From NCBI GenBank assembly GCA_001929475.1, contig LXFE01000118.1, positions 1-29,774 of the forward strand: 29,774 bases of DNA. The letters are read 5' to 3'. This DNA comes from Neolecta irregularis DAH-3. Taxonomy: Eukaryota; Ascomycota; Neolectomycetes; Neolectales; Neolectaceae. The notes under the pieces were generated by a model. That model worked only from the letters and a program-made list of their open reading frames with translations, was not told where the DNA came from and searched no databases. This document shows, piece after piece, positions 706-26,662 of this stretch. Position 1 is the first letter of the stretch. The number at the start of each line of letters is the position of its first letter. The position numbers and the translations under genes were made by a program.

Positions 706-2569
706 ATGATCCCGTTTGTCGAAGCAGCCTGTGGTCTTGTTGCCCCAACGCTGGGAATCAGCAGCTCTCAAACCAAAATACCCTTATGTTTGGTGCTGTC
801 TCTTCCATTTGCGGCAGTGCTCAAACGATTGCCCGATCATCGCCCAGATATCAAAAACATTTATAGCATCTCGTTTCCAAGTCTTTGTTGAACTGGTGCT
901 GAACTTTCAGCGTCTCACTATTCTACCTGCTCGGTATATTTTCTTTGTGGTGCGGACTGCGAACCCTTTTGATAAGCTCTCTCGGTACATATGTGCTTTC
1001 TGCCTTCATCAAGAATAAGTACATGCCACTCATCGTTTTTGTCTTTGTGCTGGGGCATATGGGCTTCAAGTGACAATGCCCACTTCTTCACATGATTTGA
1101 TTGTATAGTCACTTTCGTAGTTTTGGAAAACCTGATGAAACTGTCGATATCATTGGTGCCCAAATGGTGTTGTGCATGAAGATGACCTCATTCGCCTGGA
1201 ACATTCACGATGGTCGTCAACCAGAAGCCGTACATGTTCCTTCTACAAATATCTTATGTTAGACATTAAGTGCTTTTCAAAAGGATCGAGCTCTCCGATA
1301 TTTGCCATCTTTGCTAGATTTCCTCGGTTATGTTTTTTTCTTTCCATCCCTTCTGGTGATATTACATCCCATCCATAGACTGAATTCAAACAGATCGGTC
1401 CGACTTTCGATATGGCCGAGTATCTGCGATTCATAAATCTCACCATGTTCGATGTCGACGTTCCCGATAAAACTTCAAAAACTGGTAGAGGACGACAGAG
1501 GAAAATCCCTTCAAGTTCAGGTCCAGCATTGAAAATGTTTCTTGAAGGCATAATGTGGTGTTGCCTGTTTAGCGTACTATCGAGACTGTACAATAGGGAC
1601 TTTCCATTGTCTAACGAATATCTCTCCTATTCATTTCTTCAACGGTATTCATCAGTTGATTTTCACCTTGACTCAAAATCAGATTGTTTTATCTTATGGC
1701 CCTGTCATTCACTTATCGGGCCAAGTATTTTGGCGCATGGTACTCTTCAATTTACCAACAACTGATGATCAGGACATTATCGGAAAGCGGAGTAATCTTA
1801 TCCGGATTTGGCTACAATGGGGTAGATTCCAGGGGCAAGCGTCGGTGGGATCGCGTCACTAATATCGAACCATGGACTATGGAAACCGCGCAGAGCAGCA
1901 AGGTAGTTCTTGAAGCCTGGAACAAAAATACGAACAAATGGTTGAAGAATTATGTTTATATGCGAGTCGCAAGCAACAAGAAGGGAGTGCCTGGAACAAA
2001 GAGCAGCCTGTTCACCTTTGCAGTTAGCGGCATGTCCCTTTATAAGGTTTATTTAAGACTCTAGCTTTTTGGCACGGATTTCAAGCAGGGTATTATCTTA
2101 CATTTGGCACCGCTGCTTTTGTTCAAATTTGTGGTAAATGTATCATCCAAACGCGTTTTTCAGCTCGTTGATTACCAGACTATCGACGGCACCTTCGACC
2201 TTTCTTTTTAAATGCAGACTGTACTCCCACCAATAGAAAAATCTATTATGATGTACTTGGTTGGTTTGTCACTAAGATAGCCTACGACTATCTTGTCATG
2301 CCCGTTGCTATGCTTGATTTCAAAAGTTCAATCATATGCTGGTATAGGCTTTGGGTTCGAACCGTTTTTGCATTCTGCCTGCTGATACCTAGTTTTTTGG
2401 TCATGTTGGGATAGCTTTAACTTTAGCATTCTTCATGGGCCCTGGAAAACAATGGATTGATCGAAAGCTAAAGAAGAGAGGTCAACTTCTAGTCGAAGCA
2501 GAAGCAACAGACGAAATTGTAGCGAGCTCCATCGTTGAAGCTTCCGGTAGCCTTACAAATCCTCTGTAG
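706..2569 (+). CDS. ALE1: MBOAT-family lysophospholipid acyltransferase (Ale1-like)
   Basis: Membrane-bound O-acyltransferase of the ER that re-acylates lysophospholipids (Lands cycle). Ten exons join into one frame of about 504 codons, the usual size for fungal Ale1. The nine introns are at 873-910, 1070-1120, 1230-1262, 1356-1393, 1645-1682, 1740-1772, 2030-2064, 2134-2178 and 2355-2392. Family signatures in order are GHMGFN, GAQMVLCMKMTSFAWN, FQKDRALRYLPSLLDFLGY, FFFPSLLIGPTFD, ILSGFGYNG, WNKNTNKWLKNYVYMRV, the SAFWHG box with the catalytic His, and WFFGHVGIALTLAFFMGPG. The protein is hydrophobic throughout with many membrane segments, and its C-terminus is a short charged tail. The start ATG gives an N-terminus (MIPFVEAACGLVAPTLGIS) colinear with other Ale1 proteins. 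Intron 7 needs a GC donor. GET4 follows in the same direction 121 bp downstream. Confidence 0.9.
2030..2064 (+). other. GC-AG intron in ALE1
   Basis: A 35-nt intron with donor GCATGT and acceptor ACTCTAG. Only this donor restores the conserved SAFWHG motif: AGC G / CT TTT TGG CAC. Nearby GT dinucleotides give the wrong phase, and the whole gene stays in frame only with this choice. Confidence 0.7.
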
Positions 2570-23716: not shown

Positions 23717-24804
23717 ATGGCCCTGACTCTGCACTATTACAGCAAGAAGTCTTTTTTTTCTGGTGCAAAACGCTTTCTTACCACAGAGTCTCAGACACAC
23801 TCTCGCGGTGACGCGAATAGACCTGGAAATCGACCCGATGGAATGAGCAGACAAGACGAAAAGATGGAACGAGCGCGTAGGATCCGGCGAGAGCAGATTG
23901 AGTGGAATATTACCCCAGAGAGTCCAGCTTACTTCTCTGGTCATGCAAAAGTATACGAGGATATAGCCGATTTGAGAGGAACGCTGCGACAATATGCCTC
24001 GTTTCCCGAATACGCAAAGTGTACGCAGACAACTCAGAGCGCTTTTGTCGAATCCCTCATCGATTCTACTACCAGAACTCCGCCTACTAATTGGATGCCA
24101 CTATCCGAATATCGAGCTACCGTTGGAGGAGCGAAAGTGTCATCGTCTGTTTACGGAAAACTCACCGACGTCTTGGGAAAGTTGAATCGGAAACACCGTC
24201 AATTTTTACCTGAAGATATAGCAAAGTTAATTGAGTCGTATCGAAGGCCTTCAGTAGACAACGTTAATGCTGGTAAATACGAAGGACCTGATCACTGGGG
24301 ACGGACATATGGTCTTGGACGACGCAAAACCGCCACTGCTCGAGCGTGGATCGTTGAGGGAGAAGGAATGGTCATGGTAAATGGGAAATTACTGGGTGAT
24401 GTGTTCGGCAAACTTAGCGATCGCGAAGAAGTCATTTGGCCGCTTAAAGTTCTTGACCAACGAGAGAACTTTAATGTGTGGGCAATAACCAGCGGCGGAG
24501 GCACAACTGGTATTGTCTACCTTTAGCTACGTGAATCTAAATTCAAGGTCAAGCACAGGCAATCAAGCTAGCAATAGCGAGAGCTCTCTTGCAACGCAAT
24601 CCATTCTGGAAGCAAGTCCTTAGAAAAGGTTGGATTTCTCATTTAGATACCACTCACTCGTTTAGCTGGTTCCGTTACTCGAGATTCACGCAAGGTCGAA
24701 CGGAAGAAACCCGGTCAAGCAAAAGGTTGCCTCTCTCAGTCGTCCTTGATGTACTGGCTAATTCATTTCCAGCACGAAAGAAGTATACCTGGGTCAAACG
24801 TTAA
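23717..24804 (+). CDS. MRPS9: Mitochondrial ribosomal protein uS9m
   Basis: Protein of the mitochondrial small ribosomal subunit. Four exons (introns 24510-24547, 24629-24665, 24726-24772) give 321 codons. A basic Ser-rich N-terminus (MALTLHYYSKKSFFSGAKRF) serves as a likely matrix presequence. The uS9 domain is in the C-terminal half: YGLGRRKTATARAWI, MVMVNGKLLGDVFGKL, WAITSGGGTTGQAQAI, KLAIARALLQ, TRDSRKVERKKPGQAKARKK and the conserved last residues YTWVKR. The C-terminal KR reaches the P-site tRNA in bacterial uS9. The long N-terminal extension is usual for fungal mitochondrial uS9. It is divergent from ATP19. Confidence 0.92.
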
Positions 24805-25049: not shown

Positions 25050-26662
25050 ATGGCGCCTTTTGGAAAACTCTATACCTTCGAGGTATGCGTAGACTCCTAA
25101 ACAACCCTGGGCTTATCATTCAAGGACAATGCCCGGTCAATCGCTCCTCGAATCGTAGCTCGGGAGAATGACTTGGAAATCCAGATTATCCCAACACAGC
25201 CAGGCAACGTAAATTCTGCATATCTCGAGAAATTCCCAATGGGAAAGGTACCCTCTTTTAGATGGAAACTTTGTGTTGATGAAGATACCTGCCTTTGAAT
25301 CGGCCGATGGATTTCAACTCCATGAAACCATCGCAATAACGCTTTACTGTAAGAGATTTTCTCCTCTTCTACTCAGTTCAATTACATATGATGAGTGTTT
25401 TTTACACAGTTATCCCTGGCTGAACTACTGTTGACAACATACTTCACTGATAATTCCATCTCTATCCTACCTTTTCTTTCATTGCGTTCTATACTGATCT
25501 CGTAGTTGCCGCTCAGAACGAGAAATGTACTCTTCTCGGAAAGACCAAAGAGGAATACGCTTCTATAATTCAGTGGATGTCTTTTGCAAACTCTGAAGTT
25601 CTTCCCAATATCGCCGCTTGGTTCCGACCTCTTTCTGGTCTTCAGCCCTACAACAAGAAAGACGTGCAAACCGCTCAAGAGAAGGTTAATAAAATTGCTA
25701 CCATTTTGGAGAAGAAACTAAAGTCTTGCACTTTTCTTGTCGGAGAACGATATTCTCTTGCGGATATTGTTATGGCTGCTCATATGACTCGAGGATTTGA
25801 AAGGGCAAGGTTGAGTACACTTCACTTTTTCTCACAAGACAGGTCCTTGATGCCGAATGGCGAAGACAGCATCCCTGTATTACCCGTTGGTATTTAACTG
25901 CTCGAAATCAACCAAGCTACAGAAAAGTCGCCGATGAACCCAAGCTCGTCGAGCAAGCCATCCAATATTCTCCTCCCAAGAAAGAGGTCAAGAAGGAGGT
26001 TTCCAAAGCTGCTGCTCAACCCAAGCCTACCGATGCGGAAGAAGAGGACGATATGCCCAAGGAAGAGCCCAAGGCCAAACATCCACTTGAGGCTCTCGGA
26101 AAGCCAAATCTCGCTCTTGATGAATGGAAGCGCTTCTATTCTAACAATGAGACGCGACCTGATGCTCTCGAATGGTTCTGGAAGAACTTTGATTCTTCTG
26201 ATTACAGCTTATACCGGGTCGACTATAAGGTTTATCTCCGCATCGCAGTGTAGCTGATCAAACCAGTACAATCACGAGTTAACCCAAGTATTCATGAGTG
26301 GAAATCTTGTTGGCGGTTTGTATGCCCGGCTTGAAGCAAGTCGAAAGGTATCCCAATTCTCCAGAATTTCGCTCACGCTCGTAGTACTTGTTCGGAAGCA
26401 TGGGTGTTTATGGCACTAATAACGATAATTTGATCAGTGGTGTTTTCATGGTACGTGGTAATGATTATTTACACGCGTTCGAAGTTGCACCGGATTATGG
26501 TATATTTCTTGTATCATACATACTAACCATTACTCAGAGAGCTATTCCTTTAAGAAGCTCAACCCATCCAACTCTCAAGATATGGCATTTGTTGAAGGCT
26601 GTTGGGCCTGGGACAACTCTGTTGATGGAAAATCTTATGCTGACGGAAAGGTGTTCAAGTAG
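25050..26662 (+). CDS. TEF4: Translation elongation factor eEF1B gamma
   Basis: Gamma subunit of the eEF1B exchange factor complex, which recharges eEF1A with GTP. Eight exons give 408 codons with introns at 25083-25124, 25248-25284, 25349-25505, 25805-25842, 26230-26266, 26348-26384 and 26500-26537. The N-terminal half is a GST-like domain (GKLYTFEDNARSIAPRIVAR, FPMGKIPAFESADGFQL, LGKTKEEYASIIQWMSF, RYSLADIVMAAHMTRGFE). A Lys/Glu-rich linker (SPPKKEVKKEVSKAAAQPKP) follows, then the conserved C-terminal domain (HPLEALGKPNLALDEWKRFY, EWFWKNFDSSDYSLYRVDYK, FMSGNLVGGLYARLE, AFVEGCWAWDNSVDGKSYAD). The third intron is by far the longest and holds a C/D snoRNA. Confidence 0.94.
25380..25455 (+). 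ncRNA. snR38: Intronic C/D box snoRNA, snR38-like
   Basis: Lies in intron 3 of the eEF1B-gamma gene. The terminal stem AATTA (25380-25384) pairs with TAATT (25451-25455). C box ATGATGA is at 25388-25394, D' box CTGA at 25420-25423 and D box CTGA at 25447-25450; C' is weak. The guide upstream of D', CAGTTATCCCTG (25407-25418), is the reverse complement of the large-subunit rRNA peptidyl-transferase sequence CAGGGATAACTG. Counting five nucleotides from D' points to the middle G of GGG, which corresponds to yeast Gm2815. In budding yeast snR38 modifies that nucleotide and is encoded in the TEF4 intron (established knowledge), so host gene, guide and target all agree. Confidence 0.85.
25805..25842 (+). 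other. GC-AG intron in the eEF1B-gamma gene
   Basis: A 38-nt intron with donor GCAAGG and acceptor AAGACAG gives GFERVLDAEW, matching the family length. A GT alternative (29 nt, GTTGAG...CACAAG) also keeps the frame but is very short and adds three residues. Confidence 0.6.

Follow-up and report, generated by a model that had tools for sequence, protein, structure and literature searches.

A predicted snR38-like box C/D snoRNA at the yeast TEF4 intron position in the eEF1B-gamma gene of Neolecta irregularis

Introduction

Is the guide RNA that baker's yeast carries in the intron of a translation-factor gene also present in the corresponding gene of Neolecta irregularis and, if so, how old could the association be? 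In S. cerevisiae, snR38 is located within the intron of TEF4, the gene for eEF1B-gamma, according to the available text of PMC3454408, PMC2705663 and PMC11194063. Relatives of this RNA are well documented. In the accessible part of PMC3511168, snR38/snoR38 is catalogued for plant, human and yeast, and the plant snoR38Y and the vertebrate snR38A/B/C have the same LSU site and belong to the same Rfam family as the RNA considered here. The chicken homologue GGgCD64 is found in intron 2 of ENSGALG00000001886 (PMC2653536, available text). The snR38 homologues CD23 of N. crassa and SnR38 of F. graminearum are intronic, as in N. irregularis. From the open portions of the two papers, CD23 guides 26S-Gm2773 via its D' guide with 11 bp (PMC2780460), and the deletion of Dbr1 in F. 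graminearum lowers the intronic SnR38 while snoRNA-bearing lariats increase (PMC9606315). On the other hand, Hoeppner and Poole (PMC3511168, same part) describe intronic snoRNA locations as unstable across eukaryotes.

The RNA family, its target and its yeast host are already known, and how far back the host link reaches is a modest addition to them. The main addition of this analysis is that host and intron position are shared between Saccharomycotina and a Taphrinomycotina-like genome. A host link outside Saccharomycotina was not found in the literature searched, which consisted mostly of papers open without subscription, in the parts available; the survey of Canzler et al. (2018) may list one. 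The DNA analysed is a stretch of 29,774 nucleotides, referred to as the window.

Host gene and its introns

All features are collected in Table 1. The host protein gave a Pfam match to EF1G with 149.9 bits together with GST_N and GST_C; the version searched was a model of 411 aa, which differs from the final one of 408 aa by three residues because intron 4 was set differently, while the stop position is the same. The JGI protein P0001, with 88% identity, is the best match among the homologues listed, and the remaining 119 of them have 50-56% identity (the best 120 of 2061 found). In the joined-exon gene model the seven introns measure 42, 37, 157, 38, 37, 37 and 38 nt, so that intron 3 is about four times as long as the six others. 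Near the gene, an open reading frame on the + strand (23717-24526) contains a partial Ribosomal_S9 domain at its C-terminal end (59.1 bits), perhaps of a mitochondrial uS9.

Table 1. Features of the eEF1B-gamma locus (window positions) and of other snoRNA loci in the genome (positions within loci L014 to L027)
Feature	Position	Strand	Basis or remark
Host gene eEF1B-gamma	25050..26662	+	8 exons, 408 aa; GST domains and EF1G domain
Intron 3, snoRNA host	25349..25505	+	157 nt, phase 1 in codon 74, GTAAGA...TAG
snR38-like box C/D snoRNA, about 76 nt	25380..25455	+	RF00213 and RF02403 matches
Terminal stem, 5' arm AATTA	25380..25384	+	complementarity
C box ATGATGA	25388..25394	+	aligned with C box of RF00213 model; agrees with RUGAUGA
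D' guide CAGTTATCCCTG, 12 nt	25407..25418	+	complementary to LSU rRNA CAGGGATAACTG
One-base spacer between guide and D'	25419	+	
D' box CTGA	25420..25423	+	
C'-like box TGTTGA, imperfect	25429..25434	+	within stretch common to Afu_328
D box CTGA	25447..25450	+	agrees with CUGA
Terminal stem, 3' arm TAATT	25451..25455	+	complementarity
Candidate branch site CTGAT	25494..25498	+	8 nt from 3' splice site; distinct from D box; pattern match
Intron 4	25805-25842	+	38-nt GC-AG, GCAAGG...CAG; seen by comparison with P0001
snR191-like H/ACA RNA	L016 2147-2368		NOG2 intron, between exons reading LNKCDLVPTSVA and ARWVKILSKEYP
snR54-like C/D RNA	L027 1128-1206		IMPDH intron, as in yeast IMD4; flanking exons identified
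U24-like C/D RNA	L021 982-1059	-	RACK1 (ASC1) intron, between WDRVVK and VWELTK
RPL7 intron C/D RNA	L014 about 1651-1775	-	C and D boxes; guide with ACCATCTTTCGGG adjoining D

Anatomy of the intronic RNA

An earlier note on this DNA, made from the letters of the sequence, had proposed an snR38-like guide in this intron; the intron itself and every element listed there were found again at the same coordinates, and the C'-like box is an addition to them. Within the intron, 31 nt separate the RNA from the 5' splice site and 50 nt separate it from the 3' splice site. Its C, D' and D boxes and its guide are all perfect and its C' box is imperfect, while the terminal stem consists of five pairs, all of them A-U. 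The folding of the intron RNA is ordinary (z 0.19), and folding the whole intron to its minimum energy does not produce the terminal stem.

The guide is identical over its 12 nt to the D' guide CAGUUAUCCCUG of snR38/snoR38, which targets the G of CAGGGAUAACUG, and both its register and the spacer of one nucleotide to the D' box are those of the RF00213 consensus. The predicted site of 2'-O-methylation is the middle G of CAGGGATAACTG, which is paired with C25415, the fifth base 5' of the D' box. We take this G to be yeast Gm2815, and the same assignment had been reached in the earlier note by the D'+5 rule.

The rRNA itself could not be read from this genome. The only exact occurrence of the 12-mer target is the one within intron 3, the peptidyl-transferase segment of the LSU is absent from the assembly, and an LSU-like query of 185 nt gave no match in it; the rDNA was probably dropped in assembly. 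Since the segment is missing, the target was taken from its universal conservation. The intronic RNA very probably guides 2'-O-methylation in the peptidyl-transferase centre of the ribosome.

Family assignment and significance

The scan of the whole window with Rfam at the gathering threshold was empty, because the scores for both RF00213 and RF02403 are below gathering, and a relaxed scan was needed. With RF00213 the RNA scores 40.5 bits (E 1.2e-4 for all 8.96 Mb of the genome) against a gathering score of 45, a catalogue threshold and not a biological feature; in this respect it differs from S. cerevisiae snR38 (RF00213). The next three sites genome-wide reach 21.6, 20.1 and 19.2 bits, and no second RF00213 site with E < 1 was found in the assembly. 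The best Rfam match is RF02403, the A. fumigatus RNA Afu_328, with 49.2 bits over the full model (E 1.1e-5 for a 1.7-kb stretch). Both RNAs have in common the guide, the D' side and the stretch flanking C', and the N. irregularis RNA differs from that family in scoring under its gathering value of 70. The genome-wide E of RF00213, together with the EF1G match of the host, bears out the proposal of an snR38-like guide in an eEF1B-gamma intron. Because snR38 escapes a gathering-threshold scan here, it can go unnoticed when divergent fungi are annotated routinely.

The contribution of chance was evaluated with 200 dinucleotide shuffles of the window on both strands. The arrangement of boxes is not significant by itself (on average 0.345 occurrences per shuffled window), whereas the 12-mer guide is beyond chance (mean 0.005). 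A search of IMG/VR with the C box/guide/D' pattern returned a sole locus, L009, which was rejected as a chance match since it is located inside a viral open frame of 2120 codons, of phage type, and has no Rfam match at E 0.1.

Phylogenetic placement

The tree was constructed from 47 sequences of a single protein, namely the N. irregularis eEF1B-gamma and 46 chosen from 240 listed homologues. The N. irregularis protein groups with P0001 (100/100), then with Saitoella (95/83) and then with Protomyces (95/88). The 10 Saccharomycotina rows are separate (100/100) and the 33 Pezizomycotina rows form another group (82/62). By this one-protein tree, the source fungus is Taphrinomycotina-like and outside Saccharomycotina. 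The earlier note had called the link between host, guide and target very old if the genome lay outside Saccharomycotina; that is where this tree puts it, and the link would be very old for this reason.

Intron position compared with yeast TEF4

The primers for deletion of the TEF4 intron are given in the accessible part of PMC2705663, where the exon-1 primer ends with ...ALAIQFY and the exon-2 primer begins with GTGGCTAAT. The latter reads G-TG GCT AAT, and the yeast protein P0121 has Leu before Ala-Asn-Gln; the first G of the primer is therefore the last base of the intron, and exon 2 starts with TG. Deduced in this way from the primers, one of which carries one intron base, the TEF4 intron would be in phase 1 in the codon of Leu69. 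In the MAFFT alignment, this codon is aligned with the phase-1 codon 74 of N. irregularis.

The TEF4 search listed 120 proteins, and 18 partial open reading frames of 300-390 aa among them were used to check the boundary. If the intron-final G and the exon TN are read through, Val or Met is expected at the boundary. It was found that the residue directly before codon 70 is Val in 9/9 frames that have one, and two more frames begin with Met at codon 69, while the other seven begin later and are uninformative. Val or Met is thus present in all 11 informative frames (11 of 18), compared with 3 of the 102 longer proteins of the same listing, which served as control (Leu 86, Phe 9, Ile 4, Val 2 and Met 1); many of the proteins come from contigs without species name, and these counts are not species counts. 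Among the homologues listed for the N. irregularis query, Val is at the boundary place in 20 of 119, and the Val/Met test is not transferable there.

A comparison of eEF1B-gamma introns had been suggested in the earlier note. Carried out for TEF4 and N. irregularis, it gives the same position and phase, those of TEF4 being deduced. The N. irregularis RNA therefore agrees with snR38/TEF4 of S. cerevisiae in guide, D' register, host gene, and intron position and phase, and also in the target G. The genes themselves differ: TEF4 has a single intron according to the literature, as far as its text was available, and the N. irregularis host gene has seven, six of them of 37-42 nt.

Discussion

We consider it very likely that the RNA at 25380-25455 is a working snR38 orthologue in eEF1B-gamma, with host and intron position shared since the common ancestor of Taphrinomycotina and Saccharomycotina. 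This reading draws on the anatomy of the RNA, its family similarity, the lack of a second significant site, the placement by one protein, and the position and phase of the intron. From these we infer expression, processing and methylation, as well as the common descent of the pairing as opposed to two insertions. Since baker's yeast has this RNA in the corresponding intron, the association probably dates back to the origin of the ascomycete fungi.

According to this explanation, snR38 would be transcribed within the eEF1B-gamma pre-mRNA, intron 3 would be spliced out and its lariat debranched by Dbr1, and exonucleases would then trim the intron down to the protected C/D core. Protection of such a core by Snu13, Nop56/58 and fibrillarin is general C/D biology. 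The D' guide would then pair with the peptidyl-transferase sequence CAGGGAUAACUG, and the central G of GGG (yeast G2815) would be 2'-O-methylated by fibrillarin. The snoRNA, the host gene and the intron position would have been together already in the common ancestor of the two lineages.

Among the other explanations, the one that survives best is that the RNA is a working snR38 which entered this intron independently, the shared host being due to a bias towards translation genes with high expression. Two insertions are conceivable because intronic locations are unstable across eukaryotes: in the available text of PMC3511168, snoRNAs are mobile and unrelated ones can occupy orthologous introns. 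Moreover, our sequence-level comparison covers two lineages. However, gene, guide, and intron position and phase are all the same as in yeast, and the pairs NOG2/snR191 and IMPDH/snR54 are kept too (see below), so that independent entry would require snoRNAs to have returned several times to their yeast hosts, which is unlikely. We regard independent entry as improbable.

A still smaller likelihood is given to a decayed relic of snR38 that has retained its boxes and guide but no longer yields a stable RNA, with the site served by another guide or by none. The sub-threshold Rfam scores, the imperfect C' box and the terminal stem composed only of A-U pairs would fit such decay. Against it, the C, D' and D boxes and the guide are perfect, the assembly has no other RF00213 site with E < 1, and a relic is not expected in the one intron that exceeds its neighbours about fourfold in length. 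That a random C/D-like arrangement met a chance 12-mer is hardly credible: the boxes alone do arise in shuffled windows and the loose pattern did match once in a phage-type frame, but the genome-wide E is 1.2e-4 and the best site is located in the eEF1B-gamma gene, which takes up 1.6 kb of 9 Mb and is orthologous to the host known from yeast.

With a working snR38 orthologue as the preferred reading, a guide for the peptidyl-transferase centre would be tied to a single intron of a single translation-factor gene on both sides of a deep split of Ascomycota. The divide between Taphrinomycotina and Saccharomycotina is generally taken as the deepest one in this phylum. Within one phylum, the locus would also stand against the instability of intronic locations described in the accessible part of PMC3511168.

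Other host/snoRNA pairs in the genome

Seven yeast host/snoRNA pairs were looked for, TEF4/snR38 included, and 5 of the 7 are present, four of them with E < 0.01 and one weak, all at sub-gathering scores. TEF4/SNR38, NOG2/SNR191 and IMD4/SNR54 are yeast pairs in the available text of PMC11194063. The NOG2 (PF08153) intron contains snR191 with 32.2 bits (gathering 46; E 1.5e-4 over 6.5 kb), and the IMPDH (PF00478) intron contains snR54 with 47.5 bits (gathering 50; E 2.6e-4 over 7.2 kb).

ASC1/U24 is likewise a yeast host/snoRNA pair. In the RACK1 intron, U24 was matched with 32.2 bits (gathering 41), with E 0.006 genome-wide and 6e-4 locally; the better of the two U24-like sites of the genome (40.7 bits) is outside RACK1. 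The weak case is the RPL7 (PF08079) intron, where a C/D RNA gave weak matches to SNORD2 (E 0.016) and snR39 (E 0.068) and no match at E 0.5 when more sequence was searched. If the D+5 rule is applied to its guide, the target may be the G beside the A807 site of snR39.

The two remaining pairs gave no snoRNA. For eEF1B-alpha/U18, PF00736 had no match in the genome and RF00093 gave nothing below E 2.6; because the host gene is itself without a match, this pair is not read as lost. The search for uS8/snR44 gave a single S8 locus, which may code for a mitochondrial protein, and no snoRNA match was obtained in that locus.

From these pairs, it is fairly likely, although we hold this with less confidence than the reading of the snR38 locus, that S. 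cerevisiae owes most of its protein-coding host/snoRNA pairs to the ancestor of all Ascomycota, in which they were already fixed, and that these pairs have resisted the drift between hosts known from eukaryotes as a whole. If this is true, the snoRNA would be what keeps these introns.

Some minor observations were made at the same loci. The U24-like RNA of 40.7 bits in L020 (about 835-890) and a nearby element that looks C/D-like by eye (1063-1133) are beside a gene with RPL14-like frames, also seen by eye, and possibly represent a non-coding snoRNA cluster. A match to mir-607 at L027 was rejected as the foldback of an inverted repeat. Similar inverted repeats, recognized by eye, are present at L027 55-171 and L020 about 2040-2160, and perhaps belong to a MITE.
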